Source: a virus. Taken from it: a DNA stretch of 28,848 nt. A program made the position numbers and the translations under genes. Each line of letters starts with the position of its first letter. Positions within the stretch are counted from its first letter, which is position 1. Under the pieces are notes generated by a model that worked only from the letters and a program-made list of their open reading frames with translations, did not search any database and was not told the origin of the DNA. The DNA lies in IMG/VR virus record IMGVR_UViG_3300025276_000158, positions 1-28,848 of that record; one strand, 5' to 3'. Below are positions 2,518-20,161 of this stretch, in pieces.

Positions 2518-2520
2518 AAT

Positions 2521-5081: not shown

Positions 5082-5086
5082 ACACT

Positions 5087-5116
5087 TATATAACGTAAAA
5101 TAATACCTTATTTGTA
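5087..5116 (-). promoter_or_regulatory. Putative phage late promoter element, copy 1
   Basis: The sense strand shows TACAAA, 14 nt, then ACGTTATATA, ending 5 nt before the ATG at 5081. It shares both boxes and the 20-nt phase with four other copies in the window. It follows directly after an intrinsic terminator (5130-5159), as expected for a fresh start of transcription. It does not match the host TAnnTTTG box. Confidence 0.65.
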
Positions 5117-5129
5117 GAAGTGTCCACTC

Positions 5130-5159
5130 AAAAAAAAAGCACCCTTTAAAAGAGTGCTT
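5130..5159 (-). terminator. Intrinsic terminator after the capsid/tube unit
   Basis: Sense strand: a GC-containing hairpin with arms AAGCACTCT and GGGTGCTT (one G-T wobble) and a short A/T loop, followed by a run of about ten T. It begins 24 nt after the stop of the 180-aa protein gene and precedes the next promoter element. Confidence 0.85.
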
Positions 5160-5182
5160 AATTTTCTAACTAAAAACAAAGA

Positions 5183-5725
5183 TTATGGTTGTACCGGTGG
5201 TGCGGTAAGTGTTGGGTCAATCTGTTCTGAATCCCCAGTAACTCCAGCTGATAAGAAATACGGTGCGTACTCTTCTAAGCCTTCAAACGTTAAAGTGAAT
5301 CCTGATAAATCTCCAGCAGCTGCGCCTGTAACAACAGTTCCGCCAGTGCATTCCATTCCATTTTCATAACCACAAAGGAAAGTATTTCCGTAGTAATCTT
5401 CTACAGCTATATACGGTCTAGCTACTGCTAGTGTTTGTAACTCGTGCTGTGTTTTAGCATCTAGGAATGTAAGTGTTAAATTTAAAGTTTGTGTGTAGAA
5501 AGTTGTTCCGTTTTCTCTTGAGCTTGTAACCGTAGTTTCAAGAGATGAATTTCCTTTTACATCAAATTCGAACCAAGTTGGACTACCTGCTACAGTAGCT
5601 TCCCTAGTTGTTCCATCAACTGTAATAGCTGTAAGTGTACCGAAGTCTGCGAAATACGCAGCTTTGATTCCGCCGAAAGCTGATTTACAGGGTAATTTTC
5701 TACCAGTCGTAAGTAAACATGCCAT
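5183..5725 (-). CDS. Putative major tail tube or tube-like structural protein
   Basis: A protein of 180 aa, mostly beta-prone, with Thr- and Gly-rich strands. It begins MACLLTTGRKLPCKSAFGGI. A central segment contains FYTQTLNLTLTFLDAKTQHE and a late segment contains GFTLTFEGLEEYAPYF, followed by a Pro/Thr tail. It lies immediately downstream of the capsid gene and is followed by a terminator, so it ends the capsid transcription unit and is probably made in large amounts. Fold and position suggest a tail tube or other abundant virion protein. I see no motif that decides between tube and decoration protein. Confidence 0.55.
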   Translation of the reverse strand: MACLLTTGRKLPCKSAFGGIKAAYFADFGTLTAITVDGTTREATVAGSPTWFEFDVKGNSSLETTVTSSRENGTTFYTQTLNLTLTFLDAKTQHELQTLAVARPYIAVEDYYGNTFLCGYENGMECTGGTVVTGAAAGDLSGFTLTFEGLEEYAPYFLSAGVTGDSEQIDPTLTAPPVQP

Positions 5726-5751
5726 TTTTTTTATATTTTTTTTAACTATTA

Positions 5752-5779
5752 GAGTATTAGTTTTTTACACCTAATACCC
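5752..5779 (-). repeat. Inverted repeat in the leader of the tube-like gene
   Basis: Arms GGGTATTAG and CTAATACTC (sense strand, one G-T pair) enclose a 10-nt loop in the 74-nt gap between capsid and tube-like genes. No T-run follows on the sense strand, so it is not a standard terminator. It could be an mRNA-stabilising or processing hairpin that raises expression of the second gene. Confidence 0.5.
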
Positions 5780-5799
5780 TTTTAGTTGATTAATTAATT

Positions 5800-6783
5800 T
5801 TAAGCGTACTCTACAATATCAGAAGCAATTCCAAACTGTACCGAAGAAGTAAATCTCATTACCATTCTTACATTATTCGAAGCATCTAAATCTTGCATGT
5901 CTAAAACCTTGACAGCATTTGTATCATTAAGAAGCCCAGTTCCGAAATAAAGATTGCTACGTTGTGCAGCGTAAATTTTGTTTGGCGATAATCCCGGACA
6001 AACAAATATCTTAACCCCATTTACTGTTAGTGAACCGTTGTTCCACCATTGAGTTCCCATATTGTTCACACCATTAGCACCTAATCCTGCTGCGGCAAAT
6101 CCGCCTAAGGCCTGCACATAATATTTTGCAGCTGCACTTCCGATATAAACGAATAGGTCTTCCTTACCATATAATGCACCCGGAATAGCATCGACAACTT
6201 TAGATAATTCTGCAATAATATTCCCTGCATTTAACCCACCACCAACTGCTGCTACTTGCTGAGCTGCGGGAATATCTCCTGCTGCTGCTGAAGCTGCAAT
6301 TAATTTTTCAAATCCATCAAAAGAATTAACTCCTGCTGCACCTCCTGTGTCTCCCTGCCAAATACAAATTTCTGTGTTTTGTGCTACCTCAGATGCAACG
6401 TGTGCAATTAAGAAGTCAGAAAATTTAGGTGGTAAAGATTGTCCTAAACCAAATCCCATTTGCTGAGATTCCCAGTCATTTACAAAATCATATTTACATA
6501 ATTGTAGATTGACTTGTAGTTCAACGGGCTGAATTATACGCTCTGTAAGTGTTACAGAACTGTTAGGTGTAAAGTCACATGATGCTGGGCTAACTAAAGC
6601 ACCAGTAGCAAGTTTCTTAATTACCTCTTTGTAAGCGATGTTCGCTTTTACTGTGATACCACCGTCATCGATTGTGCTCGCTGACAATAATGCTGCAGCG
6701 ATGTATTCACCGGCAAATTGACCGGCATAAGTCGTCGTAATATTTACCGCAGTCGCTAATTTTACATTGTTAAGATTGCTCAT
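5800..6783 (-). CDS. Major capsid protein, HK97-fold type
   Basis: A protein of 327 aa, the usual size for an HK97-type shell protein. It has an N-terminal region followed by a long Ala/Gly-rich centre (GDIPAAQQVAAVGGGLNAGN around 169-188). Near the C-terminus it has the typical hexamer-contact pattern LTVNGVKIFVCPGLSPNKIY and YFGTGLLNDTNAVKVLDMQD. It follows the protease-like and acidic scaffold-like genes, the standard head-gene neighbourhood. No long N-terminal delta domain is obvious, in line with a separate scaffold. The call rests on size, pattern and context. Confidence 0.8.
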   Translation of the reverse strand: MSNLNNVKLATAVNITTTYAGQFAGEYIAAALLSASTIDDGGITVKANIAYKEVIKKLATGALVSPASCDFTPNSSVTLTERIIQPVELQVNLQLCKYDFVNDWESQQMGFGLGQSLPPKFSDFLIAHVASEVAQNTEICIWQGDTGGAAGVNSFDGFEKLIAASAAAGDIPAAQQVAAVGGGLNAGNIIAELSKVVDAIPGALYGKEDLFVYIGSAAAKYYVQALGGFAAAGLGANGVNNMGTQWWNNGSLTVNGVKIFVCPGLSPNKIYAAQRSNLYFGTGLLNDTNAVKVLDMQDLDASNNVRMVMRFTSSVQFGIASDIVEYA

Positions 6784-6790
6784 TTTTTTT

Positions 6791-7441
6791 TTATTTATTT
6801 AATTTATTTAATACTCTATCTAGTGTCGTGCTAAATTTACCTTTTGCAAATTCAACTTTTTTAGTTTGGCTTACAGCTTCCGGATTATGTTTAATTGGCT
6901 TAGCTGCTGGCTCTTCTGAAAACTCTTCTTTTATAGTACGAGATTTAGGCTGTCTTGAAATTTCCTCTTCCATTTCTACCTCTTTTTCTTCTTCTACCTC
7001 TTCTACCTCTTCCATTTTAGATTCCTTATCTCCTTTTAAATCAGCGATAGCATCTTCTAAGTTTTGAATTTTAGCTTCCATCTCTTTAAAAGAGTCCTTA
7101 GTAACATAGTTACCTTCATCAGCCATTTCTTTTTCATCGTAACCTAAATCAGAGGTAATTTCTTCCCCCTCTTCGGTTTCCTTTTGTGGTGCTTCATCAG
7201 CTACTTCTCTAACATCTCCAATAATTCCTTCCTCAGCAACTACAACTAAACGACCATCTTCTAAAAGATATTCTCCTACTGGCATCGCTACTTTTTCATC
7301 ATCTGTTACGATAAAGAGTTCTTTACCTTTTTCAAAAGATTCAGCACTAACTAGAGTGCCATTTTCTAACTTCATTTCTTCAAGTTTTACCTCGATATTT
7401 AGAAGTGTTTTAATTTGATTTAACATTTCGGTTGATTTCAT
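6791..7441 (-). CDS. Acidic scaffold-like protein
   Basis: A protein of 216 aa. The first ~75 residues form a small beta domain (KLENGTLVSAESFEKGKELF, then PVGEYLLEDGRLVVVAEEG) seen in scaffold-region proteins of Bacteroidota phages. Next come a Glu-rich region and a coiled coil (DSFKEMEAKIQNLEDAIADL), with strings of Glu around 145-160. The C-terminus is basic (KFSTTLDRVLNKLNK), as expected for a scaffold tail that binds the inner capsid surface. It is encoded directly before the capsid gene and after the protease-like gene and a 53-aa ORF. It has its own ACGTTATATA element 6 nt upstream of the ATG. Confidence 0.65.
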   Translation of the reverse strand: MKSTEMLNQIKTLLNIEVKLEEMKLENGTLVSAESFEKGKELFIVTDDEKVAMPVGEYLLEDGRLVVVAEEGIIGDVREVADEAPQKETEEGEEITSDLGYDEKEMADEGNYVTKDSFKEMEAKIQNLEDAIADLKGDKESKMEEVEEVEEEKEVEMEEEISRQPKSRTIKEEFSEEPAAKPIKHNPEAVSQTKKVEFAKGKFSTTLDRVLNKLNK

Positions 7442-7447
7442 ATTATA

Positions 7448-7477
7448 TATATAACGGTTATTAATTCTAATTTTGTA
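7448..7477 (-). promoter_or_regulatory. Putative phage late promoter element, copy 2
   Basis: Sense strand: TACAAA, 14 nt, then CCGTTATATA, six nt before the ATG at 7441. This copy has C instead of A in the first position of the second box. It would drive the scaffold, capsid and tube-like genes. Confidence 0.6.
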
Positions 7478-7484
7478 TTTTCAG

Positions 7485-7646
7485 TTATGTTCTTGTTATA
7501 ACACCTATGCCCTGAGCCCTCACAGAGCCGTCACAGCACTTAATAGAATACTTGTTAGTATCCCAGCACAAACAGGCTCTACTGCTTCCTGTAGGGCTTG
7601 TACGGCTTGGTATAAAAGTACCTTTGTTTTTATTATTATTTCCCAT
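7485..7646 (-). CDS. Cys-rich 53-aa phage microprotein
   Basis: ATG at 7646, TAA at 7485-7487. The protein begins MGNNNKNKGTFIPSRTS and has a CLC motif at residues 25-27 and a CC pair at 37-38 (KYSIKCCDGSVRAQGIG). The four Cys could bind a metal. Tiny proteins with this SRACLC...YSIKCCDGS...QGIG pattern recur in Bacteroidota phage genomes, by my recollection, with no known function. It overlaps the end of the protease-like gene by 11 nt and is followed by the promoter element of the scaffold unit. A plus-strand frame over the same interval is best read as its shadow. Confidence 0.7.
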   Translation of the reverse strand: MGNNNKNKGTFIPSRTSPTGSSRACLCWDTNKYSIKCCDGSVRAQGIGVITRT

Positions 7647-8247
7647 AATTATCAGCAGTTAATATTTCTTTAATTTTATTTAAAATTTTATCCTCTTTTG
7701 ATAAATCTTCTAGTACAGCCTCTTTGGGCCTTTCCATTTTATCAGCAAAATAACCCTCAATCGAGAATCCTTTTACTTTATTTGTTTTGACGTATTCCTG
7801 CCAAATTTCTTCATTATTTACTTTCACTGCACCCATCCAAGTTCCTACAGGAACATCTAATCCGTACTTTCTGGATTTATCCTGTGTTTCACTTTCAACA
7901 ATCCAGCTCTCGACTAATGTCAAACCACTCAAGGTCTGGTCATGTTCGAGAGTCGAGTTGTTTTGATAACCTTTTTTTAAATACATCTGTGATGCTTTTA
8001 CTATGGTATCTTTAGAGAAGAATATATAATATTCATCCCCCTCAGGGCCTTTCCTGAATATTGGCTTATTAGGTATCAATAAAGCACCTAATAAAATTCT
8101 TTTTTCTTTATCAATCTCAGCTAGTTTAACCTCTTGATTATTTAAGGCTACAAAATCAGACTCAATTGCAGGGCTCTCTACTATTGAGATAGCTTCGATT
8201 CCTGATTCCTCTTGTTCCTCATCTAGTATTAATTCTATTATCTTCAT
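7636..8247 (-). CDS. XkdF-like prohead protease candidate
   Basis: A protein of 203 aa resembling the PBSX XkdF / phage prohead protease group. The N-terminus has IEAISIVESPAIESDF, the usual opening of these proteins. Candidate catalytic residues are His102 in STLEHDQTL and Ser162 in GFSIEGYF. The strand VESWIVES (112-119) lies between them. These proteases cleave scaffold and capsid delta regions during head maturation. The gene precedes the scaffold-like and capsid genes and has an ACGTTATATA element 3 nt upstream of its ATG. Confidence 0.7.
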   Translation of the reverse strand: MKIIELILDEEQEESGIEAISIVESPAIESDFVALNNQEVKLAEIDKEKRILLGALLIPNKPIFRKGPEGDEYYIFFSKDTIVKASQMYLKKGYQNNSTLEHDQTLSGLTLVESWIVESETQDKSRKYGLDVPVGTWMGAVKVNNEEIWQEYVKTNKVKGFSIEGYFADKMERPKEAVLEDLSKEDKILNKIKEILTADNYGK

Positions 8248-8250
8248 AAC

Positions 8251-8280
8251 TATATAACGTTTTTAAAATTCAATTTTGTA
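8251..8280 (-). promoter_or_regulatory. Putative phage late promoter element, copy 3
   Basis: Sense strand: TACAAA, 14 nt, then ACGTTATATA, three nt before the ATG at 8247. It lies wholly in the 34-nt gap after the tape-measure stop at 8282. Confidence 0.65.
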
Positions 8281-8281
8281 T

Positions 8282-10678
8282 TTAATCAATAGTAGCACCT
8301 GTAACAATATTACGCTCTAAGCTCTGAGCACTTGTAACATCGTTAGCAACTACAAAAGCTTGAACTGGTTGTTGACTTTGGCCTCCTATAGCATCAGCGA
8401 GTTGATTTGTAGAACCTGCGCCTACTGTATTGAACTCAGGCGGAATAGATGCTGTTGGTGGAACAGGCTCTGTTGTAGGTGCGCCACCTGCTCCTGCTGC
8501 TGGGTTACTTGCTCCAGCACTTACATTTTTAGGATTGGTTTTTAATATGTCTTTCACAGACTTAAATCCTATTGCTGCTGTACTTGCTATGTTCACAAGC
8601 TTTAAAGCAAAGCCAAAAGGTGTAACTGTTTTAGTTGCTAACTCGGCTGTTATACCTTGATAGGTGTTTATAAGAGATGCAGCGGCTGCAGCTGCCTTAC
8701 CTGCCTTAGAACTTTCTCCTAATAGATTTGCAATACCTGCAAAAGTTTGCTGAGCCATATCTAGTTCAGCTTTGTTTTTAATTTCTTCAACTACTTTTTC
8801 TTGGTCATTATAGTATTTTATAATAGCTAATTCGTCATCCTTTGTACCGCCTATTCGTTTTAATTCAACTAAATCTGCTGCCTTTTGCTCTGCTAAACTT
8901 GCTTCTTCTTCTCCTAGTTTAGACTCTAAAAAGGCTTCTTTTTCCTCTGCCAGTAGAGCAGCCTCTTCATCTTCTATTATTTTCTTTTTTTCTTTAAAAG
9001 CATTTTCAACATCTAAAATCATTTGCTGTTTTGCTGTTTCCGTAAGCTTTAATTCCTCTAACGCTAATAAATTGGCTGCTCTTTCTTCTTCTATTTTAGT
9101 AAATTTGGTTTCTTTTTCTTTAACTATTAATGAGTCTTTAAAATCTTGTATAGCTTTTTCATTTTCTGCTTCTATAAGTGCTTTTTGGTTGTTAAAAGAT
9201 TTTTGAATATCTAAAAGCATTTCCTTTTTTTCAGTTTCAGATGCCTTTAATTCCTCTAAAGCTAAAAGCCTTTCCGACTTTTCCTGTTCTATTGCTGCAA
9301 ATTGATTTTTTGTGTCCTCAATTCTTAAAGAGTCAGCAAAATCTTTTACTGCTTTTTCGTTTGCTATTCTTTCATCTCTTCTTGCCTCGCCTGCAGCCCT
9401 TTGTTCATCTGCTTTTGCTTTGTTTACTGCTCTTTCTTCATTCCTTAGACCAATTATTTGACTTGTTACTTCTTTTGCTTTAGTAAGCTTTGCGGTTTCT
9501 AGTTGTATTAAAACAGCTTTTAAGTTTACTTCTTCTTCTAAGCTTTCTTTGGTAGAATCCCCTAAAGCGTTTTCTGCAATTTTAGCTTTTAGTCTTAAAC
9601 TTGCTGCTTCAATTTCTTTTCTAGTTATTTCATCCTCTAATCTACCTGCTTCAATTAAAAACTCTATACGTTCTGTTAACGTATATTTTTCTTTGTTAAC
9701 TGCTTGTTCTAATAAGGTTGCTCTATCTCTATTTGCTTCTGCTCTATCTACAATTATAGCCCTTTCAAGTTTGTCTGCTCTTGCTCTTTGGTCAGCTATT
9801 TTTGCTGCTATTTTAGCCTCACGTTCTATTTCTTTTATAAGTGCTTTTGTGCTTTTTGATACAGCATCAGTCAACATTTTAGCTGCATTTAAACCATCAT
9901 TTAGACTAGAAAGACCTTTTTTACCTGCATCCATTGCTCCTGCAAAATCTCCTTTAAATAGCTTTGAGATTGCTTTGCCCATAAAGCCAAGCCCTTCAAT
10001 GACTTTTTCAACTTTATCCATTACAAATTCCTTAATACTCTTTCCAAAGTTTTTAAGGGTTTCTATTGGACTTGTAAATAAATTAATTAAAAACCTACCT
10101 AGTGCTGCTAATTTGTCTGTAAACACATCGACGACAGCACCTATAACGCCCATCATTTTGTTCCAAGAGTTCTGACCTTCTTCCGATGATGTAAACGCTT
10201 GTCCTAATGCTGTTAATGCAATAAGTAAAGCACCAATACCTGTTCCAATAATGGCAATTTTCATAAGGTTAAAACCCTTTGTAGCTCCGCTTATTGATTT
10301 GGTCATGCCTGTAAAACCTGAAATAGCTCCACCAGTTTTAGAGTCTAACATGCCAAGCACACCCTCGTATTCAGCTGATGATTCAATAGACTCATCCATT
10401 TCACGATTAGCTAGCTTACGCTCTTGATTTAAGTCTTTTAAACCGCTTTGTTCTTCTTTTAAGCGTAATTTTGTATCCTTAATTTTATCGTTTAAGTGCT
10501 GTCTTTTGGCTAAGTCTGTAGCTGATGTTTTACTTAACTGTTTTTCATAGTCTCGTAACTCCTTATCAATATCAAATAATAAATCCTCTTGGGCCTGCAG
10601 CGATGCGTTTAGCTCATCTATGTTTTGCTGGGCCTGCTCTGTAGAAAGCTTTAAGCTATATTCTCTTACTTCTGCCAT
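8282..10678 (-). CDS. Tail tape measure protein
   Basis: A protein of 798 aa. Residues 1-105 are coiled coil. A hydrophobic part runs from about 138 to 200 with two membrane-like stretches (IAIIGTGIGALLIALTAL at 141-158 and the segment around GVIGAVVDVF). A very long charged coiled coil follows, 280-640, with an Ala-rich helical segment and a Pro/Gly-rich C-terminus (GGAPTTEPVPPTASIPPEF). This is the classic tape-measure layout, which sets tail length and is ejected into the host envelope. The length predicts a tail of roughly 110-120 nm by the usual 1.5 Å per residue rule. The coiled coil contains a 66-aa tandem repeat. It overlaps the upstream 47-aa ORF by 13 nt. Confidence 0.85.
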   Translation of the reverse strand: MAEVREYSLKLSTEQAQQNIDELNASLQAQEDLLFDIDKELRDYEKQLSKTSATDLAKRQHLNDKIKDTKLRLKEEQSGLKDLNQERKLANREMDESIESSAEYEGVLGMLDSKTGGAISGFTGMTKSISGATKGFNLMKIAIIGTGIGALLIALTALGQAFTSSEEGQNSWNKMMGVIGAVVDVFTDKLAALGRFLINLFTSPIETLKNFGKSIKEFVMDKVEKVIEGLGFMGKAISKLFKGDFAGAMDAGKKGLSSLNDGLNAAKMLTDAVSKSTKALIKEIEREAKIAAKIADQRARADKLERAIIVDRAEANRDRATLLEQAVNKEKYTLTERIEFLIEAGRLEDEITRKEIEAASLRLKAKIAENALGDSTKESLEEEVNLKAVLIQLETAKLTKAKEVTSQIIGLRNEERAVNKAKADEQRAAGEARRDERIANEKAVKDFADSLRIEDTKNQFAAIEQEKSERLLALEELKASETEKKEMLLDIQKSFNNQKALIEAENEKAIQDFKDSLIVKEKETKFTKIEEERAANLLALEELKLTETAKQQMILDVENAFKEKKKIIEDEEAALLAEEKEAFLESKLGEEEASLAEQKAADLVELKRIGGTKDDELAIIKYYNDQEKVVEEIKNKAELDMAQQTFAGIANLLGESSKAGKAAAAAASLINTYQGITAELATKTVTPFGFALKLVNIASTAAIGFKSVKDILKTNPKNVSAGASNPAAGAGGAPTTEPVPPTASIPPEFNTVGAGSTNQLADAIGGQSQQPVQAFVVANDVTSAQSLERNIVTGATID
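8963..9358 (-). repeat. 66-codon tandem duplication in the tape-measure coiled coil
   Basis: Residues 441-506 and 507-572 align with a 66-aa period: EKAVKDFADSL against EKAIQDFKDSL, LLALEELKASETEKKEMLLD against LLALEELKLTETAKQQMILD. The units are diverged but clearly homologous. Confidence 0.75.
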
Positions 10679-10809
10679 TTTATGTTGTTTTTTATAAGTT
10701 TTTTTGCACCTTTAAAATCTTTGGGCAAAGCGTTTAGGCCTTGCGCTATCTTAATGCTCTCAGTTTCTCCGTTTGCTATTTGCAGCAATTCTATTATATT
10801 TTTTATCAT
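10666..10809 (-). CDS. 47-aa ORF between baseplate and tape-measure genes
   Basis: ATG at 10809, TAA at 10666-10668, encoding MIKNIIELLQIANGETESIK and a basic Lys-rich C-terminus. Its start overlaps the upstream stop as ATGA, and it overlaps the tape-measure start by 13 nt. This tight coupling argues that it is translated. It is helical and amphipathic with no membrane segment. It could be a small tail assembly factor, but no family is recognised. Confidence 0.6.
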   Translation of the reverse strand: MIKNIIELLQIANGETESIKIAQGLNALPKDFKGAKKLIKNNIKWQK

Positions 10810-12935
10810 ACCTTATTTAATAGTTCCATATTGCTTTTACCGCTTTGTAGGTTTGTCGTTATAGAGTTGATTATATAGTTTCGGTTGTTTATAGTAAATG
10901 TGTCATTTAACTTAAAATCATATAAAATTCTTAAAGGTAAATAGGCAGTTACTTTAGTTATTCTGCGGCTTGTATTAAAAACATCAATAATGTATTCACT
11001 ATGATAATCGGAAAAGAGTGTATCAGTAAAAGACTGTGTCTGACTAAACTCGTTTTGCTCTAATGCAAAATTAATGTTTTCTGTACCTGATGAGCTTACA
11101 AGATTTAAGCTATTACTCGGAACCCAGTAAGTATTTGTCGCAACTTTACCTGTCCCAGTTGCTACAGTTTGAAAACTCATTTGAGTTCCTGTTTGTAGAA
11201 TAGCATAAAATATAAGTGGCTTTCCTATATATGGCTGTGCATTTTCATTAACTGACCATCCCCATTGAATATCTAAAGGCGCACCGCTGCTAGCATTTAA
11301 AAGCCTTTCATATTGCATGTGCTCAAAAGGAACAGAAACATTATAAATCTCTGTAGAGGCGTTGTAGTTAATTCCTCCTGTTCCATCAGTATTAGTACCT
11401 CCAATGTATGCTAAAGAACCCCATGCACGTCCGTCTAGTTGCTCGAATTGTTTAGCTAAAAAAGTCCCTGTTCCTTCATACTTATATATAATTTCTTTGT
11501 AAGGCAAAGCTACGTTTACTTGGCTTTTTGTTACATCAACGTATTTTGATATATTATAATTTACAGGAGCATCGTTCCCGTTTATGTCTGCTGAGGTATA
11601 ATAACTGTTATTAACCCCTGAACCTGTTCTGCCCTCTAAAGGTCTTACAACTATTGTACCTTCATCGTCTACATAAGCCACTAAATTAAACATCTTAAAT
11701 AGCCCAGTAAGAAAAGACATAATACTAACATCAGGAATTTGCTCAGCAACGATAAAGTCGAAATCAATAGTAGCATTAAATTGACCAACACTTACAGTCT
11801 CATTCCATAATACCGGAGCTTGTCCCGGAAGTCTATAGAACCCTTCAAAAAACCATGTAACAGAACTTATAGTTAGTGGTAAACTGTGTAAGATAGTTAC
11901 TGTATAAACTCCATTATCTACATAGCCCTGTAAAGAAATAACGGTTGTCCCGGTTCTTGCAGTTGATGTAAATACAACGTTTCCTGACTCTCTTACTTGT
12001 ACCTGATATTCGACTGCGTTTCCTGACTGTGGTGTTACGGTTAATGCACTGCTAGTTATATCATTTGGGTTTGTAATTATTTCTGATGGAATTATAATAG
12101 TGTTTCCGTTTCTTACTATATAAATTACTGTACCAGTCCATGATGGCGTTATAGTTGAAAACTGAACGACTTGCTGAGGTGCTTGAACGTAGCCACTTTT
12201 ACGATGTAGCCACATATATAGTTTATAGAATACTGGATTTGTAGTGCTAAAGAAATCTCTAGAAAAAACAATGTTATTTGCGTATCCGTTTGCGGTCGTG
12301 TATTTAGATTCTATTTCCAGTATTATTTCATACAGTCTTATAGCAAATTTTAACTGGTCAAATACAACCCCTTGCTGTAAACCAGAGTTATAATAAACGT
12401 TATCATAGTTTGGCGATTGTGAGTTGTAAAATAGCCTTTGAGTATGCGTAATTAAAGGCACGATTATTTTGCCATTTCCTTGCTCACTCACTAAGTGGCT
12501 TCTTACTGTTGGCCAATTATACGTCTTAGTATAATCTGGACTAGAAAATGGCAATGAGCCTAGTTTGTCATCTCCTAAAATATCAGGTAACTCTACTGTG
12601 TTTCCAAAGAAGGTAATACGATAAGTATGGGCTAAGTTGTTTTTTAGTGATACACCCTCTAGTTTTATTCTACCAGTTTTATAGGGTATAAAATTTAACT
12701 CAATATTCCCTGATTTTTTAATTCTTGCATCAAACCCATCTACAATATCATAATTATAATAGTGTTCAAAAATCTTGTTATTGTTCTTACTTGCAGGTAG
12801 GGAGAATGTCTTAGTAAATGAGGTAAATATCTTTGCCACATCTTTTACGTTTTGAATAGTTTGCGTAAGTGAGACTGATTCATCTTTAAATAACTCTAAC
12901 CTTTGGCCCTCAATATATAGCTGTAATTCTTGCAT
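10806..12935 (-). CDS. Large tail / baseplate protein
   Basis: A protein of 709 aa. The N-terminus (MQELQLYIEGQRLELFKDES, then VAKIFTSFTKTFSLPASKNN) is typical of a protein conserved in Bacteroidota siphoviruses beside the tape measure, probably the distal tail/tail-hub equivalent. The middle is beta-rich with an Ig-like stretch (about 275-370), and the C-terminus contains FKLNDTFTINNRNYIINSI. No peptidase motif was seen. It follows the 333-aa tail protein after a short repeat region and couples to the 47-aa ORF as ATGA. Its order relative to the tape measure is reversed compared with lambda-like phages. Confidence 0.65.
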   Translation of the reverse strand: MQELQLYIEGQRLELFKDESVSLTQTIQNVKDVAKIFTSFTKTFSLPASKNNNKIFEHYYNYDIVDGFDARIKKSGNIELNFIPYKTGRIKLEGVSLKNNLAHTYRITFFGNTVELPDILGDDKLGSLPFSSPDYTKTYNWPTVRSHLVSEQGNGKIIVPLITHTQRLFYNSQSPNYDNVYYNSGLQQGVVFDQLKFAIRLYEIILEIESKYTTANGYANNIVFSRDFFSTTNPVFYKLYMWLHRKSGYVQAPQQVVQFSTITPSWTGTVIYIVRNGNTIIIPSEIITNPNDITSSALTVTPQSGNAVEYQVQVRESGNVVFTSTARTGTTVISLQGYVDNGVYTVTILHSLPLTISSVTWFFEGFYRLPGQAPVLWNETVSVGQFNATIDFDFIVAEQIPDVSIMSFLTGLFKMFNLVAYVDDEGTIVVRPLEGRTGSGVNNSYYTSADINGNDAPVNYNISKYVDVTKSQVNVALPYKEIIYKYEGTGTFLAKQFEQLDGRAWGSLAYIGGTNTDGTGGINYNASTEIYNVSVPFEHMQYERLLNASSGAPLDIQWGWSVNENAQPYIGKPLIFYAILQTGTQMSFQTVATGTGKVATNTYWVPSNSLNLVSSSGTENINFALEQNEFSQTQSFTDTLFSDYHSEYIIDVFNTSRRITKVTAYLPLRILYDFKLNDTFTINNRNYIINSITTNLQSGKSNMELLNKV

Positions 12936-13952: not shown

Positions 13953-13955
13953 AGT

Positions 13956-14525
13956 TTATTTCTTTTTTCCTAATATTATTGCGTTCTCAATATCCAAAGT
14001 AAACGCCTCAAATAAATTATCGCCTAGTTTTTCTAATCCTTTTTCAAAAGGCTTTGTAAAAAACATGTTTGCTTTTAAACCTTTGTTATATATACTTCGA
14101 GCAATTAAAAAGCCCATAGATTCATAAGACATAAATTTACCTGTCTTTTTATCCTTCCATTGAAATTTCTTTTTTTTCAGCCATCCTGTTTTGGTAGAAG
14201 GATTGTAAATTGCATTAGTCAAACCACCCTTTTTTCCTGTTCCACTTCCGTACTGAAATTTAGACATTGCTGATGCTGTTTCAGGATATGTTGAGGTTTT
14301 ACCCCTCACTCCTTTGTCTACAAAAGGTGCGTAATCTTCCATTAGGAAATCTAATAAAAAGAAACTTGGCTCTCTATCTAACTTATATTCAATAGAATTA
14401 TATAATGGGCCACCACCTTTATTTCCACCATAGGCATCCTTATCTTTTGTTAGGTTGCTTTTAGCTTGCTGCACTACATACTTACCGTACTTGTCTAATA
14501 CTTGTTTTAGGTTATCAGAATCCAT
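13956..14525 (-). CDS. HK97 gp10-like tail / head-tail joining protein
   Basis: The ATG at 14525 (TAATG overlap with the upstream stop) is preferred over a TTG at 14531, giving 189 aa beginning MDSDNLKQVLDKYGKYVVQQ. The pattern of an N-terminal helix with NLTKDKDAYGG, a GPLYNSIEYKL strand, then DYAPFVDKGVRG, matches HK97 gp10-type proteins that act at the head-tail or tail-completion interface. The middle is Lys/Gly-rich. It is followed 3 nt later by the 333-aa tail gene. Confidence 0.65.
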   Translation of the reverse strand: MDSDNLKQVLDKYGKYVVQQAKSNLTKDKDAYGGNKGGGPLYNSIEYKLDREPSFFLLDFLMEDYAPFVDKGVRGKTSTYPETASAMSKFQYGSGTGKKGGLTNAIYNPSTKTGWLKKKKFQWKDKKTGKFMSYESMGFLIARSIYNKGLKANMFFTKPFEKGLEKLGDNLFEAFTLDIENAIILGKKK

Positions 14526-14995
14526 TAGCAAATATAAATATCGTTGTAAATCATTATATCCATAGTAGCTGTCCAGCCTGCTAATTGGTTTTCAAACCTA
14601 TCGTAAAACGGACTTAAACTTGGATTACCTTCTAATTGATACATCTCAGTATGTAGGTTGCCCATCCTTAGCCTCTGTATAAGCTTATTAAGCACCGCTA
14701 ACTGCGTATTAAGTATATCTTGCACATTATTATTACCAGTAAATCTATCAACCGTAAAATCCTTTGATTGGTTTACTATATCGCAGGCTAGTATGCTTAT
14801 GTTAAACCTCAACACTTGTTCCTCATCAATGACGTTATTTATTATAATGTGGCCTAAAGGGAAAATATCCTGTTTATTTAGATTAACCTCTGTTATATCT
14901 CCAGTCGTTACTGAGTTAATATCCTTATCCTCTAGTAGAGCTGTTTTAATAGTTTCCGTTAATTGGTAAAAACCCCTTACACCTTGATTGCTCAT
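14525..14995 (-). CDS. Putative tail terminator / tail completion protein
   Basis: A protein of 156 aa beginning MSNQGVRGFYQLTETIKTAL. The middle has NKQDIFPLGHIIINNV and NNVQDILNTQLAVLNKLIQR, and the C-terminus has ENQLAGWTATMDIMIYND. It resembles a well-conserved small protein of Bacteroidota siphoviruses next to gp10-like genes, with the size and alpha/beta make-up of tail terminators. Its ATG overlaps the stop of the -1-frame chaperone extension as ATGA, which supports use of that frame. Confidence 0.6.
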   Translation of the reverse strand: MSNQGVRGFYQLTETIKTALLEDKDINSVTTGDITEVNLNKQDIFPLGHIIINNVIDEEQVLRFNISILACDIVNQSKDFTVDRFTGNNNVQDILNTQLAVLNKLIQRLRMGNLHTEMYQLEGNPSLSPFYDRFENQLAGWTATMDIMIYNDIYIC

Positions 14996-15246
14996 TTAAA
15001 TTTCTTTTTTATTTGTTTAGCTTCTAGCTCGTTTTTGTCTTTCATAAAGGATAACATCATAAAGCATTCATGCACACCTAGTTTAGTGATATCTTCAAAT
15101 CCTCTAATATCGAATTTAGCGAGTGCAGCGATTGATTGATACCATCCCCATTTTTTTGTAAACTGAGAAAATGAGTCAAGGTTTTTGTCTCCGCCCCCTC
15201 TAAATAGTTCGTCATATTTTTCGATAAGTCTAGTCCTAAATTCCAC
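14992..15246 (-). CDS. -1-frame C-terminal extension of the putative tail chaperone
   Basis: An 84-codon open frame from a GTG at 15246 to a TGA at 14992, in the -1 frame of the overlapping 216-aa gene, with no good ATG of its own. It encodes WGWYQSIAALAKFDI and LGVHECFMMLSFMKDKNELE, protein-like and similar to C-terminal parts of phage tail-assembly proteins. A -1 slip at the T10 run (15247-15256) would join it to residues 1-161 of the upstream frame to make a product of about 245 aa, in the manner of lambda gpG-T. Its stop is ATGA-coupled to the next gene. Alternatively, one T is missing from the assembly and the two frames are a single gene. Confidence 0.65.
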   Translation of the reverse strand: MEFRTRLIEKYDELFRGGGDKNLDSFSQFTKKWGWYQSIAALAKFDIRGFEDITKLGVHECFMMLSFMKDKNELEAKQIKKKFK

Positions 15247-15728
15247 AAAAAAAAAATTGAGCTCATAACGGCATCCATAGGCATATCCATTATCTGCTGC
15301 TCTGTACCTACTCTGTATTCCTCAATGCTGTATCTCTCTTTTACGTTAACCAGCACAGGCCTGTATAGTACATTCATAGCCTTTTCCATATTTTCCCAAT
15401 CTCCAATAAACGTATCTAAGTCAATATATTCCCCTAGAGTTATTTCATCTAGCTGAGGTTGAAAACCATACTGCACACCATTAAGCGTAAAGCGTTTTAC
15501 TAGCTCAGGCTTATTATCAAATAGAGCTGTAATAATACTTACTATTTCTTCGGTATCCCTAAGCTGTAAATTCATTACCTCTTTTAAATCTAAGCCACAA
15601 AATATCTCTATCATTTTGGCGTTTAAAAATCTTTCGTCTGTTACCTTTTCCTGTATTTTCAAAAAGCGTTTGTATTGCTGTAATGTAATGTCCTTTAAGG
15701 AAGTTGGTATTGTAATTTTCACTTTCAT
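15078..15728 (-). CDS. Putative tail assembly chaperone, frame-0 product
   Basis: A protein of 216 aa beginning MKVKITIPTSLKDITLQQYK, mostly helical. It contains VQYGFQPQLDEITLGEYIDL (85-104) and a conserved WENMEKAMNVLYRPV stretch, a pattern common in Bacteroidota phage tail-region proteins. Residues 158-161 (IFFL) lie over a T10 slippery run. Past it, frame 0 continues for 55 codons (KNGDGINQSLHSLNSILEDL) and also looks protein-like. It is the first gene of the tail operon, with an ACGTTATATA element 3 nt before the ATG and a terminator just upstream. The chaperone role is inferred from the overlap design. Confidence 0.65.
   Translation of the reverse strand: MKVKITIPTSLKDITLQQYKRFLKIQEKVTDERFLNAKMIEIFCGLDLKEVMNLQLRDTEEIVSIITALFDNKPELVKRFTLNGVQYGFQPQLDEITLGEYIDLDTFIGDWENMEKAMNVLYRPVLVNVKERYSIEEYRVGTEQQIMDMPMDAVMSSIFFLWNLGLDLSKNMTNYLEGAETKTLTHFLSLQKNGDGINQSLHSLNSILEDLKISLN
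15247..15256 (-). other. T10 slippery run, candidate -1 frameshift site
   Basis: On the sense strand ATT TTT TTT TTG (frame 0) can slip back one base so that GTG GAA TTT is read next, entering the 84-codon -1 frame. It contains the heptamer T TTT TTG. Polymerase slippage or a sequencing error in the homopolymer are alternatives. Confidence 0.6.
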
Positions 15729-15731
15729 ATA

Positions 15732-15761
15732 TATATAACGTATTTAATTAGGTTTTTTATA
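15732..15761 (-). promoter_or_regulatory. Putative phage late promoter element, copy 4
   Basis: Sense strand: TATAAA, 14 nt, then ACGTTATATA, three nt before the ATG at 15728. It lies just downstream of the terminator at 15776-15803 and would start the tail operon. Confidence 0.65.
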
Positions 15762-15775
15762 GTCTGATGTTTCAG

Positions 15776-15803
15776 AAAAAAAAAAGCAGCTATTTCTAGC
15801 CAC
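15776..15803 (-). terminator. Intrinsic terminator with GAAA tetraloop
   Basis: Sense strand: GTGGCTA, loop GAAA, TAGCTGC (7-bp stem with two G-T pairs), then ten T. It closes the small operon of the 61-aa, ParB-like and two microprotein genes and separates it from the tail operon. Confidence 0.85.
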
Positions 15804-15826
15804 CCTTTTATTATAGTGTTTTTGTT

Positions 15827-15952
15827 TTATCTTTGGTCTGCTTCAAAGCAAGCATTACTACAAACGCCCCTGTCTTCATGCATAGGTTTGCCACACATGC
15901 CGCATTCAAATTCAGGCTGCTCATGTGGGTTTAAAAAGTCATCCCAGCTCAT
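15827..15952 (-). CDS. 41-aa zinc-ribbon-like microprotein
   Basis: ATG at 15952, TAA at 15827-15829. It encodes MSWDDFLNPHEQPEFECGMC followed by a second Cys pair; the Cys are residues 17, 20, 31 and 35 (CxxC...CxxxC), suited to bind one zinc. Such mini zinc ribbons usually bind nucleic acid or proteins. Its start overlaps the stop of the upstream membrane microprotein, and the terminator follows 24 nt downstream. No named family is recognised. Confidence 0.65.
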   Translation of the reverse strand: MSWDDFLNPHEQPEFECGMCGKPMHEDRGVCSNACFEADQR

Positions 15953-16074
15953 ATATCAAATATTACGGTTAATAAAACTCTTCCAATAAAATAGCTAGGT
16001 ATTAATATTAGCATAAATAACTCTACTTTTTTAAACTGCTTTCCTAGCCTAGCAGCTCTACTTAATTTTTTCAT
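15949..16074 (-). CDS. 41-aa single-helix membrane microprotein
   Basis: ATG at 16074 (ATGA overlap with the ParB-like gene stop), TGA at 15949. It has a basic N-terminus (MKKLSRAARLGKQFKK), then one hydrophobic segment, residues 19-40 (VELFMLILIPSYFIGRVLL within it), and almost no C-terminal tail. It is predicted to be an inner-membrane protein with N-terminus inside. Its role is unknown; it is coupled at both ends to neighbours. Confidence 0.6.
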   Translation of the reverse strand: MKKLSRAARLGKQFKKVELFMLILIPSYFIGRVLLTVIFDI

Positions 16075-16772
16075 TTGTTGTATTTTTTATATAAATCTCT
16101 TAAATAGTTGTACTGCTCTGTTTCGTTATTGTAGCAAACTAAGTAATGTTTTTTAGTTATTTTCTCTATTATTTTAAATTGCAAACCACCTACAGCTGCA
16201 TCTATCCTTTTTAAAGCCCTTACGTTTAAGGCGGCATAAGGGTTAAACTTTAGGCTGTTATTATAGCTAAGCAGGTTTAAGCACTCAAATATTCTTTGTG
16301 CTCTTTTAACATCTATTTTATAATTGTTATTACTAAGGGCTATTTTAATATTAGAGCAGCTAGCATTTTCATGCAGTAAAGCTATAACGTTAATTTTACT
16401 CATCTTTTTATTACTCTCTACATACCAGTCATTTGCTATCCTTAAAGCTTGCTTACAATCAGCATTGCCTTTAAGCGCATTCTTATTACAAAAATCTAAA
16501 GCAGTCCACTTTTTACTAATCTGTAATTGGTCGATATTATCCTCGTCTGTGTCTTGAGATATAATATAACACACCGGTATATCAAGCTCCTTAGCAGCTT
16601 GCAGTCTATGCTGGCCATCTATTATAGAGTTGTTTTTATTTACTAAAATGGGCATTTGTAAACCTATATTACTAATTGATTCTTTAATCCTTTGCAGGTT
16701 TTGTTTGTCTAATTCCCTATTCCCTATAACCTTGTTAAATATTGAGTAGGCTTTTGTTGTTCTGATTTCCAT
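16071..16772 (-). CDS. ParB N-terminal domain protein
   Basis: A protein of 233 aa. Residues about 10-75 form a ParB/sulfiredoxin-fold domain with the signature SIIDGQHRLQAA (49-60). The rest is helical and basic and may bind DNA or a partner (LNVRALKRIDAAVGGLQFKI near 187-206). Phage ParB-like proteins often act as CTP-dependent or nuclease-like DNA-binding factors rather than in partition, and no ParA is present here. It sits in a short operon with a host-type promoter, near terminase. A second ParB domain is fused to the methyltransferase at 18865-20127. Confidence 0.8.
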   Translation of the reverse strand: MEIRTTKAYSIFNKVIGNRELDKQNLQRIKESISNIGLQMPILVNKNNSIIDGQHRLQAAKELDIPVCYIISQDTDEDNIDQLQISKKWTALDFCNKNALKGNADCKQALRIANDWYVESNKKMSKINVIALLHENASCSNIKIALSNNNYKIDVKRAQRIFECLNLLSYNNSLKFNPYAALNVRALKRIDAAVGGLQFKIIEKITKKHYLVCYNNETEQYNYLRDLYKKYNK

Positions 16773-16773
16773 T

Positions 16774-16959
16774 TTAGTTTTTTATTAAGATTAAATCTAG
16801 CTGGTCTGCTACGTAGTTAATGTGCTTTTGCGTTGTTTGACTCCAGTAACCTAATTGTAGTAAATCATTGCCCTCAATTTTAGCCACTATAGTTGAGTAG
16901 CTCCATACGTTGTTTCCTTGTATGCTTAAATTTTGTTTGTACTTGTCCAGTATTATCAT
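16774..16959 (-). CDS. Small conserved phage protein, 61 aa
   Basis: The sequence contains NVWSYSTIVAKIEGNDLLQL and GYWSQTTQKHINYVADQLDL, a pattern I recall from small phage proteins of unknown function in many hosts (the DUF8033 type, by memory). It is soluble and alpha/beta. It is the first gene behind a perfect host-type promoter with a 36-nt leader, so it is likely expressed early and strongly. Its stop lies 1 nt before the ParB-like gene start. No biochemical role is known to me. Confidence 0.6.
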   Translation of the reverse strand: MIILDKYKQNLSIQGNNVWSYSTIVAKIEGNDLLQLGYWSQTTQKHINYVADQLDLILIKN

Positions 16960-16995
16960 TGTTCTGTTTTTAATACCGGCTTAATTGCCAGTCCT
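16960..16995 (-). promoter_or_regulatory. Short 5' leader with hairpin, shared with the 22205 gene
   Basis: From the -7 box to the ATG the sense leader holds a small hairpin (ACTGGC, 6 nt, GCCGGT) followed by TATTAAAAACAGAACA directly before ATG. The leader of the gene at 22205 has the same design (TATTGG, CCAGTA, then TATTTAAAAACAGAACAAA). Confidence 0.55.
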
Positions 16996-17026
16996 CAAAT
17001 GTAAAACAAATAAACTTATAAACAAA
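16996..17026 (-). promoter_or_regulatory. Host-type (Bacteroidota) promoter
   Basis: Sense strand: TTTG (17026-17023), exactly 19 nt, TACATTTG (17003-16996). This fits the Bacteroidota primary sigma consensus TTTG-N19-TAnnTTTG at every defined position. It drives the 61-aa/ParB-like operon and lies directly after the terminase large gene. Confidence 0.85.
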
Positions 17027-17044
17027 ATAATTAATAACTTTTAT

Positions 17045-18208
17045 TTAGCTTATGGTATAACGGCCAAAATTAGGCCTGCTTAAAATAGAGTAAGTAGCGT
17101 ATCGGCATGGGTCTATAATGTGATTGTGCTTATCCTCCGGCACGTTAACCAGCAACCCAGCCTTATCCTCTTTCCACTTGTAGTTTCTAAATTCTGATAT
17201 TGCATTATGTGAACTGGATAATATGTGTATTTTATAACGCTTTAATAAATCTATGCCGGCATTAATAGAATCCTTTCCTTTAACACTTGGAAATATATTG
17301 TGGCCCATTCTGCGCAGCTCGTTAATTAAACGTGGCTCAGCACTGTCAGCATATATAGGGTTCTTTAACAGCTTTTCTTCTTTTAGGAATGTATTTATAT
17401 CGCTGGTAGTCATTTGGGTGCGATACAGGTGTTCTTTAATGTATAGGTTATGACCTAGCGTGTAAACAGAAACCAAAGTTGTAGGGTCATTGGTATAACC
17501 AAAGTCCATCCCATAAGCCACTAGGCTTGCATCAACTGGCACTTCTGTAACTTCTGTGTATTTAAAAATAGTGCTCCTACTAGCTGTTCTTTCTCCCAAC
17601 CCATACACCTGCCAATATTGTTCGTCTGTTTCTCTAAGCCTTTCTATCTCGGCTATAATAGAGGCATCAACAAAAGGGTTATCTAAATAGGTGGTTTTAA
17701 AAAAGGCGCAATCCTCTCTAGTTAATACCTTATCATATATCCAATGGTATTCATCTGAGGGGTTAAAATCTAGTACTATCTTATCCTGTGTTCTAAATAA
17801 CAGCTGCTGCCAATCCTCAAAGTACAATTCGTTAGCCTCGTTAATAAACAGTAAATCCCTTTTACGCCCTCTAATCTTTTGAGGTTGGTCTAATGATATA
17901 AACTCTACTAAATTGCCAAATAGGTTATACTCTGAGTTACTGCGATTATGGAAGTTTTCGCTGTATATATTATGGGCCTTTAATATGCTCATAAAATCCC
18001 TTAATACTGTAGCACGTAAACTAGGAAAGGTTTTACGGCAAATGGTTATAATCTTATTATTGTTTTTAGTGCAATACTCAAAAATAACCCACAGCAGTAT
18101 GTTGTAGGTTTTTCCCGACCTAGTTCCGCCCTGTTCTACTACAATTTTTTTCTCGTTGTTTACTAAGTGCTTATAAACAACGTTAGTCTTTATTTTTAAT
18201 TGAGTCAA
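17045..18208 (-). CDS. terL: Terminase large subunit
   Basis: A protein of 387 aa of the PBSX XtmB / Terminase_3 type. The ATPase has Walker A GGTRSGKT (27-34) and Walker B LLFINEAN (119-126). The nuclease has acidic residues in GMDFGYTNDP (D235), YADSAEPR (D288) and HIIDPCRYA (D366). It packages DNA into the prohead through the portal and cuts the concatemer. It overlaps terS by 26 nt. The gene is followed by the host-type promoter of the next operon. Confidence 0.95.
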   Translation of the reverse strand: MTQLKIKTNVVYKHLVNNEKKIVVEQGGTRSGKTYNILLWVIFEYCTKNNNKIITICRKTFPSLRATVLRDFMSILKAHNIYSENFHNRSNSEYNLFGNLVEFISLDQPQKIRGRKRDLLFINEANELYFEDWQQLLFRTQDKIVLDFNPSDEYHWIYDKVLTREDCAFFKTTYLDNPFVDASIIAEIERLRETDEQYWQVYGLGERTASRSTIFKYTEVTEVPVDASLVAYGMDFGYTNDPTTLVSVYTLGHNLYIKEHLYRTQMTTSDINTFLKEEKLLKNPIYADSAEPRLINELRRMGHNIFPSVKGKDSINAGIDLLKRYKIHILSSSHNAISEFRNYKWKEDKAGLLVNVPEDKHNHIIDPCRYATYSILSRPNFGRYTIS

Positions 18209-18590
18209 TTATTTCTATTTGAAAGTTAGTTGGCATTCCCTCAGCTCCGGTTATCTCCTGTCTTTCTACATATCCTCTTTGCTTACCTTTTGTCTTTAAA
18301 TAAAAGATAGTCGCTGCTGTAGAGTTAGCTGATATTTGTTTATGTAACTGGCTTTCCGCAAAGTCTAAGGCCACATTTTCTATATCCTTGACATCTCTTG
18401 CAAACACCTCATCTTCTTTCAGCCACTTATAGTAAGTGCTTCTAGGTGTGTCTGATTTTCTACATGCAACTGTTACAACCCCTAAGCTCTGTTCTAAAGC
18501 TTTTAAGAGTGTTTCCTTTTTTATGTGTCTACTTTTGTCCATTATTTTTTTATTTAGGTATTCTTTACCATTATTAGCGAAGTGATTCAT
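18183..18590 (-). CDS. terS: Terminase small subunit
   Basis: A protein of 135 aa with an N-terminal helix-turn-helix (about 24-60; LGVVTVACRKSDTPRSTYYK then W) and a C-terminal helical part with AATIFYLKTKGKQRGYVERQ, the standard end of small terminases of this family. It recognises viral DNA and regulates TerL. It lies directly upstream of and overlaps terL. An alternative start at the internal Met17 would lose only a short basic tail. Confidence 0.9.
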   Translation of the reverse strand: MNHFANNGKEYLNKKIMDKSRHIKKETLLKALEQSLGVVTVACRKSDTPRSTYYKWLKEDEVFARDVKDIENVALDFAESQLHKQISANSTAATIFYLKTKGKQRGYVERQEITGAEGMPTNFQIEIIDSIKNKD

Positions 18591-18611
18591 ATATTATTGT
18601 TAAAATTAATA

Positions 18612-18884
18612 CTATAAACATTTTTTTATAAATTTATCGAATGGCTCTTTTATGCAGCTTGATAGCTCAATATAAGTTTCATTATGTTCAGGAAAAGTAT
18701 GTATAGCAAAATGGCTTTCACTAAGTAAAAACAAAGCTGTGTAACCGTATGGTTTAAAATGCTTTTCGCATAGGTCTAAAACATTAAAACCACTTTCAGC
18801 TAGTAATACACTAAAGTATTCTTTTAGGGCCTTAGGCTCTGTTTTATCTATCCATACTGCGTAATTATATATCTGCGCTTTCAT
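18612..18884 (-). CDS. Short S-adenosylmethionine decarboxylase homologue
   Basis: A protein of 90 aa matching the bacterial class 1B AdoMetDC core. The self-cleavage motif is LLSESHFAIHTFPE: Ser57 (the pyruvoyl-forming Ser), His62 and Cys77 have the same spacing as Ser63, His68 and Cys83 of the Thermotoga enzyme, and Glu56 precedes the cleavage Ser. Such enzymes make decarboxylated AdoMet for spermidine synthesis. It ends 13 residues after Cys77 and is shorter than the usual 115-130 aa, so the last part of the fold is missing. It overlaps the ParB-methyltransferase gene by 20 nt and precedes terS. It could supply polyamine for DNA packaging or lower AdoMet against restriction; both are inferences. 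Confidence 0.8.
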   Translation of the reverse strand: MKAQIYNYAVWIDKTEPKALKEYFSVLLAESGFNVLDLCEKHFKPYGYTALFLLSESHFAIHTFPEHNETYIELSSCIKEPFDKFIKKCL

Positions 18885-20127
18885 CTACTGCTATGTTTTT
18901 AAAGTCTAATTTTTTATATATATTTTTTATCTCTTTGGGGTTTCCTTTATAAAACACCAGTACGTTTTGGTGGCACTTACCTACTTTTCTGTTATGCATG
19001 TACCGGCCTACTCTTTGTGGAAGCGTGCCTATACTCTCAGCTATTATCATCTCATTGTAAAGCTTAGCACCATTTCTAATAAATATGTTTTTTACATCAT
19101 CAGCAAAGCCATAGTAAAACCCTTTTTTATCTCTTATATCTCCTACTACTATAACAGCAAACCTATTTTCTTTTAAGCATGTTAAAGCTCTTGTAAATGC
19201 GTTGTCTAGTATTTGTAAAAAGTCTTTGTACTCTTTTTGGTTGCTGGCATCATTCTTTAAGTCAGAGTAAACCTCTAAATCAAAATATGGTGGGCAACTA
19301 AACAGTAAATCTTGGCTATCCTCTTTTATATGTTTTAGCACGTTTTGGCCATCATCACAAATGTATTTGCTTTTACTACCTTTTAGCCTTTGGTTGTTTA
19401 AGTCTGTTTGCTCCTGCCTTAGCTCAATACCAGTAAACGTATTCCCTAGCGCATCACTAATATATCCAAACACACTATCCCCAGCAAAGCAGTCAAATGT
19501 ATTACAGTTATCTAAGCCAAACCATTTATTTGCTATCTCAGCTAACACAGGGTCAAGTAAGCTTACGCCATTGTTAGTTGCAGCCATTATGTTAGTAGCT
19601 CCCTTAGCAAGCGCACCCTCTCGGCTTTCGCCCTCATCTCCTATTAAGCTTTTCCAGTATTTTTTACGCTCCTGCCAGTATCCTTTTTTAGTATCTAATA
19701 TGCTAAACGGTGGCACTACAAAAGTATCTTCTAATTTATTGTGTTCCTCTTTAGGCTCTTGCTCAAACGGAAAGCCATCTAACCCCCATTCTTCCAGCTC
19801 TTTAACATCCCAATCATTAGCCAGTACATCCCAATCCCATTCGCCAAAGCCTACATTATCTTTAACTATAAATTCTTCTACCTGCTTATCGGTTAGGTTA
19901 TCTGCTTTTATTATATACACTTCTTTTAGCCCTGCTTCTTTGCATGCTCTGTAGCGCATATTGCCACCCAGTATAGCCATATCTTTATTGACTACTATGG
20001 GCCTAAGCTGTAGCATTTCCGGAAAATCCTCTATACTAGTTACTAGTTTTTTAAATTTAGCTTCTTTTATTGTGCGAGGGTTCGTAGGGTTTGGGAACAC
20101 TTTATTTATTGCAACTTTTTGTATCAT
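18865..20127 (-). CDS. ParB domain - DNA methyltransferase fusion
   Basis: A protein of 420 aa. Residues 1-95 form a ParB-like domain (IVVNKDMAILGGNMRYRA ends at 61). After an acidic linker, residues about 145-395 form an AdoMet-dependent DNA methyltransferase: motif I region FDCFAGDSVFG (211-221) and catalytic motif IV SCPPY (277-281), the form seen in N4-cytosine/N6-adenine enzymes. Such fusions are frequent in phages and modify phage DNA to resist restriction or mark packaging sites. No restriction endonuclease partner is seen. It is first in the unit with the AdoMetDC homologue and terminase, behind ACGTTATATA 3 nt before the ATG. Confidence 0.88.
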   Translation of the reverse strand: MIQKVAINKVFPNPTNPRTIKEAKFKKLVTSIEDFPEMLQLRPIVVNKDMAILGGNMRYRACKEAGLKEVYIIKADNLTDKQVEEFIVKDNVGFGEWDWDVLANDWDVKELEEWGLDGFPFEQEPKEEHNKLEDTFVVPPFSILDTKKGYWQERKKYWKSLIGDEGESREGALAKGATNIMAATNNGVSLLDPVLAEIANKWFGLDNCNTFDCFAGDSVFGYISDALGNTFTGIELRQEQTDLNNQRLKGSKSKYICDDGQNVLKHIKEDSQDLLFSCPPYFDLEVYSDLKNDASNQKEYKDFLQILDNAFTRALTCLKENRFAVIVVGDIRDKKGFYYGFADDVKNIFIRNGAKLYNEMIIAESIGTLPQRVGRYMHNRKVGKCHQNVLVFYKGNPKEIKNIYKKLDFKNIAVDESADI

Positions 20128-20130
20128 AGT

Positions 20131-20161
20131 TATATAACGTATTATTTAGATTTATTTTGCC
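20131..20161 (-). promoter_or_regulatory. Putative phage late promoter element, copy 5
   Basis: Sense strand: GGCAAAAT, spacer, then ACGTTATATA, three nt before the ATG at 20127. The A-rich box is 1 nt further away than in the other copies. The element overlaps the last codons of the DnaA-domain gene. Confidence 0.6.

Follow-up and report, generated by a model that had tools for sequence, protein, structure and literature searches.

Conserved elements upstream of virion genes in a marine phage lineage: probable late promoters of a putative ECF-type sigma factor with leaderless or nearly leaderless transcripts

Introduction

Two phage-encoded sigma factors are among the closest described parallels to the locus examined here. 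In phage phiEco32, the ECF-like sigma factor gp36 directs middle and late genes by way of the host polymerase (PMC8948821, PMC4281155). For phage 7-11, one of these reports describes the sigma factor SaPh711_gp47 together with a bipartite late promoter, GTAAtg-(16)-aCTA, located upstream of late genes, and places the transcription starts of both phages 6-9 bp from the element (PMC8948821). In Flavobacterium psychrophilum, a CGT box at -10 has been taken as a signature of ECF promoters (PMC9723704).

The DNA analyzed here, referred to as the window, is the IMG/VR record IMGVR_UViG_3300025276_000158, a stretch of 28,848 nt with a GC content of 0.32-0.37 in which nearly all genes lie on the minus strand. 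Like phage 7-11, it appears to pair a sigma factor of its own with bipartite promoters upstream of late genes, and the putative sigma factor, like gp36, resembles the ECF type. Based on comparisons of the window sequence with its relatives, we consider it likely that five elements in the window act as late promoters recognized by an ECF-type sigma factor of the phage and that they give rise to leaderless or nearly leaderless mRNAs. The lineage to which the window belongs is a widespread one of marine phages, with hosts probably among the Flavobacteriia.

A bipartite element upstream of five genes

The pattern CGTTATATA has five matches in the window, all on the minus (coding) strand (5087, 7448, 8251, 15732 and 20131), as compared with a mean of 0.33 and a maximum of 2 in 100 dinucleotide shuffles of the window. 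Four copies are exactly ACGTTATATA, and the copy at 7448 is CCGTTATATA. Gaps of 5, 6, 3, 3 and 3 nt, respectively, separate the 10-mer from an ATG, and an A-rich box (TACAAA three times, TATAAA once, GCAAAA once) precedes it. These observations confirm a preliminary description of the window, which had claimed five sense-strand copies located 3-6 nt before an ATG and the same set of hexamers. That description had placed the A-rich box 20-21 nt ahead of the 10-mer; the value of 20 nt stands, measured from the start of the box to the first base of the 10-mer, but it is exact in all five copies and 21 does not occur. It had also read TATATA as the -10 core, for which CGTTA, an ECF-type CGT box, is the better reading. 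The Bacteroidota primary-sigma box TAnnTTTG is absent at -7 from all five sites, a mismatch that had been correctly pointed out.

The first putative late promoter (5087-5116, minus strand) comprises TACAAA at 5116-5111 and ACGTTATATA at 5096-5087. Its ATG at 5081 lies 14 nt past the C of CGTTA (offset 14) and begins gene 4647-5081, which is ahead of the portal gene (2521-4650). The second (7448-7477, minus strand; TACAAA at 7477-7472, CCGTTATATA at 7457-7448) has an offset of 15 to the ATG at 7441 of gene 6791-7441, located ahead of gene 5800-6783. The latter is the likely major capsid gene, named from its position and size only, as it matches a PHROG of unknown function. The remaining three share an offset of 12. 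Promoter 3 (8251-8280, minus strand; TACAAA at 8280-8275, ACGTTATATA at 8260-8251) precedes the ATG at 8247 of gene 7636-8247, which is head maturation protease-like by PHROG match; promoter 4 (15732-15761, minus strand; TATAAA at 15761-15756, ACGTTATATA at 15741-15732) precedes the ATG at 15728 of gene 15078-15728, the first of a virion gene cluster recognized by PHROG matches; and promoter 5 (20131-20160, minus strand; GCAAAA at 20160-20155, ACGTTATATA at 20140-20131) precedes the ATG at 20127 of gene 18865-20127. This last gene is ParB-N/DNA methyltransferase-like and heads a unit that, again by PHROG matches, includes S-adenosylmethionine (SAM) decarboxylase-like and terminase genes. Terminator-like hairpins followed by T runs are found just upstream of promoter 1 (5159-5137, minus strand) and promoter 4 (15809-15780, minus strand), in keeping with the earlier statement that two copies directly follow intrinsic terminators.

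Sites were also scored with a position weight matrix (PWM) trained on relatives, using 20 block-shuffled windows as background. The five window sites scored 35.8, 30.1, 29.6, 28.1 and 14.3 bits, the next-best window site scored 8.5, and the top scores in the shuffled windows ranged up to 15.8. For the site at 20139 (late promoter 5) the PWM score alone is not significant, and support comes from its exact 10-mer and its conservation in relatives. The 3' end of ORF 20142-20651, located upstream, contains the GCAAAA box of this promoter; this may account for the poor PWM match.

Several features of the surrounding genes were recorded separately. The SAM decarboxylase-like gene of the terminase unit (18612-18884, minus strand) matches its PHROG with an E value of 4.7e-34. 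ORF 20142-20651 (minus strand), directly upstream of late promoter 5, shows a weak match to the DnaA C-terminal helix-turn-helix (E 4e-6, under the Pfam cut-off). In one relative (L368, G011:1-11000), ORFs at 2492-5994 that were judged by eye to resemble QueC, QueD, QueE and FolE, of queuosine/deazaguanine synthesis, occupy the place of the remainder of the window's methyltransferase and of its SAM decarboxylase-like gene, an exchange suggestive of alternative DNA-modification cassettes.

Conservation in related phages

At least 120 stretches in IMG/VR match TACAAA-N14-ACGTTATATA, against 55 for the reversed-pattern control in the entire collection. Among 278 related loci, we counted CGTTAT located 10-18 nt ahead of an open ATG, which yielded 349 sites. 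The same five orthologues follow 325 of these (115, 89, 70, 37 and 14 for promoters 1 to 5), and AAA is present at -18 in 323 of the 325. The preliminary description had made its reading depend on the motif being enriched ahead of orthologous operons in relatives, which it is. In 13 of the 14 long contigs, the pattern AAA-N15-CGTTATATA occurs four or five times per contig, always on a single strand, as compared with one match in total for the reversed pattern across all 14. A point against the proposed mechanism is that the other contig, G005, carries the putative sigma gene discussed below but only one exact site, although it contains four CGTTATAT sites at offset 12. A further set of 80 loci was picked solely by capsid-gene similarity; in these, 128 of 135 occurrences of CGTTA within the 3-80 nt before an ATG fall at 11-16 nt, whereas the control 5-mers ATTGC and GCTTA gave 0. 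Because many loci in these sets are related, the counts should not be treated as independent.

Probable position of the transcription start

To place the start point, 383 AAA-N15-CGTTAT sites were picked regardless of any ATG. An open ATG is located 12-16 nt past the C in 339 of them; a distance of 11 does not occur, and a distance of 10 occurs twice. Each of the five orthologue groups shows conserved amino acids combined with variable third codon positions from codon 2 onward, and because codon conservation begins there, the ATG is the true translation start. Sigma-70 family -10 elements have their first base at about -12. With the C of CGTTA at approximately this position, transcription would start at the A of the ATG for sites with an offset of 12, and 1-4 nt upstream for offsets of 13-16. 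We infer from this geometry, which is also the basis for the exact nucleotide, that transcription starts at or within a few nucleotides of the ATG and that the first genes of the virion units are subject to leaderless translation. Strict leaderlessness is proposed with less confidence than the overall mechanism. The earlier suggestion of starts at or next to the ATG, and of leaderless or nearly leaderless late mRNAs, gains support from the fixed spacing between the A-box and the -10 element, the free distance to the ATG and the ECF-like geometry. The element-ATG geometry also fits the start distances described for phiEco32 and 7-11.

The alternative that retains the most weight, while still unlikely, is that the elements are promoters but initiate transcription far upstream of the ATG or within the gene, such that the mRNAs are not leaderless. 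The start position rests on geometry, and the starts reported for phage sigma factors vary by several nucleotides, at 6-9 bp from the element (PMC8948821). Another point against leaderlessness is that most host mRNAs are leadered (PMC9723704, PMC6847099), with leaderless transcripts accounting for 5.5% of the mapped host mRNAs in F. psychrophilum (PMC9723704). However, the boxes end 3-7 nt upstream of a conserved, true start codon, which leaves no room for a long leader, and the ATG distances show a sharp lower limit at offset 12.

A putative sigma factor and its link to the element

Gene 23441-23938 (minus strand) encodes a 165-aa protein with zero Pfam hits that is most likely a previously unrecognized ECF-type sigma factor, as judged by its predicted structure, Foldseek and VIA matches to ECF sigma factors, weak PF04542 matches in relatives, the phage protein P12024S_33 (see below) and co-occurrence with the motif. 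The AlphaFold model is helical and two-domain (pLDDT 80, with a modest pTM of 0.43), and its best Foldseek matches in the PDB are all ECF sigma factors (AlgU, RpoE, SigH and SigW). The model superimposes on sigmaE region 4 bound to -35 DNA in its C-terminal part (1.6 A over 63 residues) and on sigma2 of SigR in its N-terminal part (2.3 A over 71 residues). The predicted model therefore exhibits the ECF layout, with sigma2 and sigma4 folds only and without sigma1.1 or sigma3. The protein belongs to a family of 38 members, the others being recovered at 63-86% identity to it; weak PF04542 (Sigma70_r2) matches occur in 16 of the 38 (best E 0.0069), and the family stays under the Pfam cut-off. When the family was aligned by hhalign with E. 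coli RpoE alone, region 2.2 was in register but the alignment was weak. No match was obtained when the sigma profile was searched against PDB sequences or when the window protein was compared with named phages by tblastn. Relatives in GTDB genomes could not be confirmed, so this route identified no prophage or host.

The sigma gene is encoded by 19 of 27 long motif contigs, as compared with 0 of 32 long control contigs. It is present in all 18 motif contigs that contain the neighboring helicase gene, and the eight motif contigs without it are missing that helicase gene as well. Contig G011, which has four sites and no sigma gene, was considered as a counterexample and rejected as truncated: on the left it reaches no further than the orthologue of 22291-22710 and so ends shortly before the sigma position. 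This co-occurrence may partly stem from the shared ancestry of one phage lineage. In the sigma-encoding genomes, the conserved motif sits on the coding strand ahead of the virion units, as is expected of late promoters that depend on a phage sigma factor. In FpV9, BD26P1 and SJC10, which are Bacteroidota phages that have a homologous terminase and gave no PF04542 hit, CGTTA was not found at 11-16 nt. A T7-like RNA polymerase (PF00940) was not found either, a result of little weight because the control genomes also gave no match.

Together, these observations suggest that the 23441-23938 protein reads the five promoters, which would act late in infection. The preliminary description had not mentioned this likely reader. 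It is rather improbable that the promoters are instead read by a host ECF sigma factor while this protein does something else. In favor of this alternative, F. psychrophilum has seven ECF sigma factors, and in its ECF-type promoter class, SM6, a CGT box occupies -10 (PMC9723704). However, the phage gene with the predicted ECF-sigma fold is present wherever a contig covers its position, and the P12024S lineage pairs a variant sigma factor with a variant element.

Promoter or translation signal

Relative to the C, the A-box falls at -18 in 71/72, 27/27, 19/20, 33/34 and 3/3 sites with C-to-ATG distances of 12, 13, 14, 15 and 16, respectively, and still in 30/34 once sites more than 70% alike are removed. 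The spacing between the A-box and CGTTA is thus fixed while the distance to the ATG is free, as a sigma factor needs, which argues for a promoter rather than a ribosome signal. That the element acts in translation initiation on leadered mRNAs, with no promoter function, might be suggested by its location always just ahead of a start codon and by the A-rich, rather than Shine-Dalgarno, contexts used in Bacteroidota (PMC6847099). This explanation was rejected as very improbable, because it is CGTTA, not the ATG, from which the A-box keeps a constant distance; moreover, only five genes per genome have the element ahead of them, all of them first in their units, and two copies come right after terminators. 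Chance likeness among five elements in AT-rich DNA has a negligible probability, as it is rejected by the shuffles and reversed-pattern controls and already refuted by conservation in hundreds of loci.

A second promoter class and a candidate small RNA

Over the whole window, TAnnTTTG shows no enrichment (45 occurrences, with 46 expected). The longer host-type pattern TTG-N19-TAnnTTTG was found in the sigma loci 78 times in the sense orientation and 18 times in antisense. Within the window, the genes at 22205 and 16959 each have such a promoter ahead of them, at distances that would give leaders of roughly 30-35 nt; these regions (22205-22274 and 16959-17025, minus strand) share the same promoter spacing and a similar leader, GCCrGTATTwAAAACAGAACAA, before the ATG. 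The presence of leadered host-type promoters and CGTTA promoters in the same phages points to two promoter classes for different genes, and the phages appear to use the former for one gene class and leaderless CGTTA promoters for virion units.

A further host-type promoter, TTG-N19-TATATTTG, is found at 26060-26156 (minus strand), with a strong hairpin and a T9 run no more than about 60 nt past it. The region, which has a conserved GTTCTGTTTATT-like 5' stretch, may encode a phage small RNA about 55 nt long. This candidate has better folding than any of its shuffles (z -3.96) and no Rfam match, and its arrangement recurs in L125, L131, L132, L137, L141, L147, L150, L160 and L169.

Proposed mechanism and implications

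We propose that the phage ECF-type sigma factor, made earlier in infection, would join the host RNA polymerase. Of its two domains, sigma4 would read the A-box (about -33 to -28), while sigma2 would both read and melt CGTTA (about -12 to -8). Transcription would then start approximately 12 nt past the C. This start would coincide with the A of the ATG or precede it by a few nucleotides, and the mRNA from which the first gene of each virion unit is translated would have no leader or almost none.

For the marine lineage as a whole, we see even prospects that the virion program runs from five leaderless late mRNAs set by the phages' own ECF-type sigma factor, with leaderless initiation as part of the late takeover. 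If true, this takeover would occur in a phylum with mostly leadered, non-Shine-Dalgarno mRNAs, and a transcription program with its probable regulator would be available for a large, essentially uncultured phage lineage represented by hundreds of metagenome contigs. A sigma family largely missed by Pfam and PHROGs profiles would also be identified. The defined promoters would make leaderless translation in Bacteroidota directly testable, and the compact sigma/promoter pair could be of use in flavobacterial genetics.

Comparison with known systems

The open papers that were searched, which make up only part of the literature, contained no description of either the sigma family or the motif. The phiEco32 promoter, tAATGTAtA, is a single element without a -35 box (PMC8948821, PMC4281155), whereas the A-box of the window elements is strongly conserved and held at a fixed spacing. 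The phage 7-11 promoter has other boxes and serves a phage of another host phylum, and the accessible portion of its description reports neither a fixed position relative to the start codon nor leaderless mRNA (PMC8948821). The SM6 ECF promoters of F. psychrophilum serve host genes (PMC9723704), unlike the elements upstream of phage virion units in the window.

A further counterpart is found in Nonlabens phage P12024S (JQ823122), for which no promoter description was found in the papers searched. Its gene 33 adjoins a VRR-NUC gene and is annotated as containing Sigma-70 region 2; the product passes the PF04542 cut-off (25.2 versus 24 bits) and aligns with the window sigma family (E 1.4e-8). 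A scan of viral contigs for the P12024S-type pattern gave 59 stretches, mostly background and few with an ATG at 12, so we do not claim that this variant is widespread. P12024S differs from the window in that its sigma factor is only about 25% identical and in that the element of this phage and its relatives is AAACAAA...CGTTAATA. It resembles the window in that the sigma gene is syntenic and a CGTTA element, with its C mostly 12 nt before the ATG, is located ahead of late genes, one of them the gene before the portal gene.
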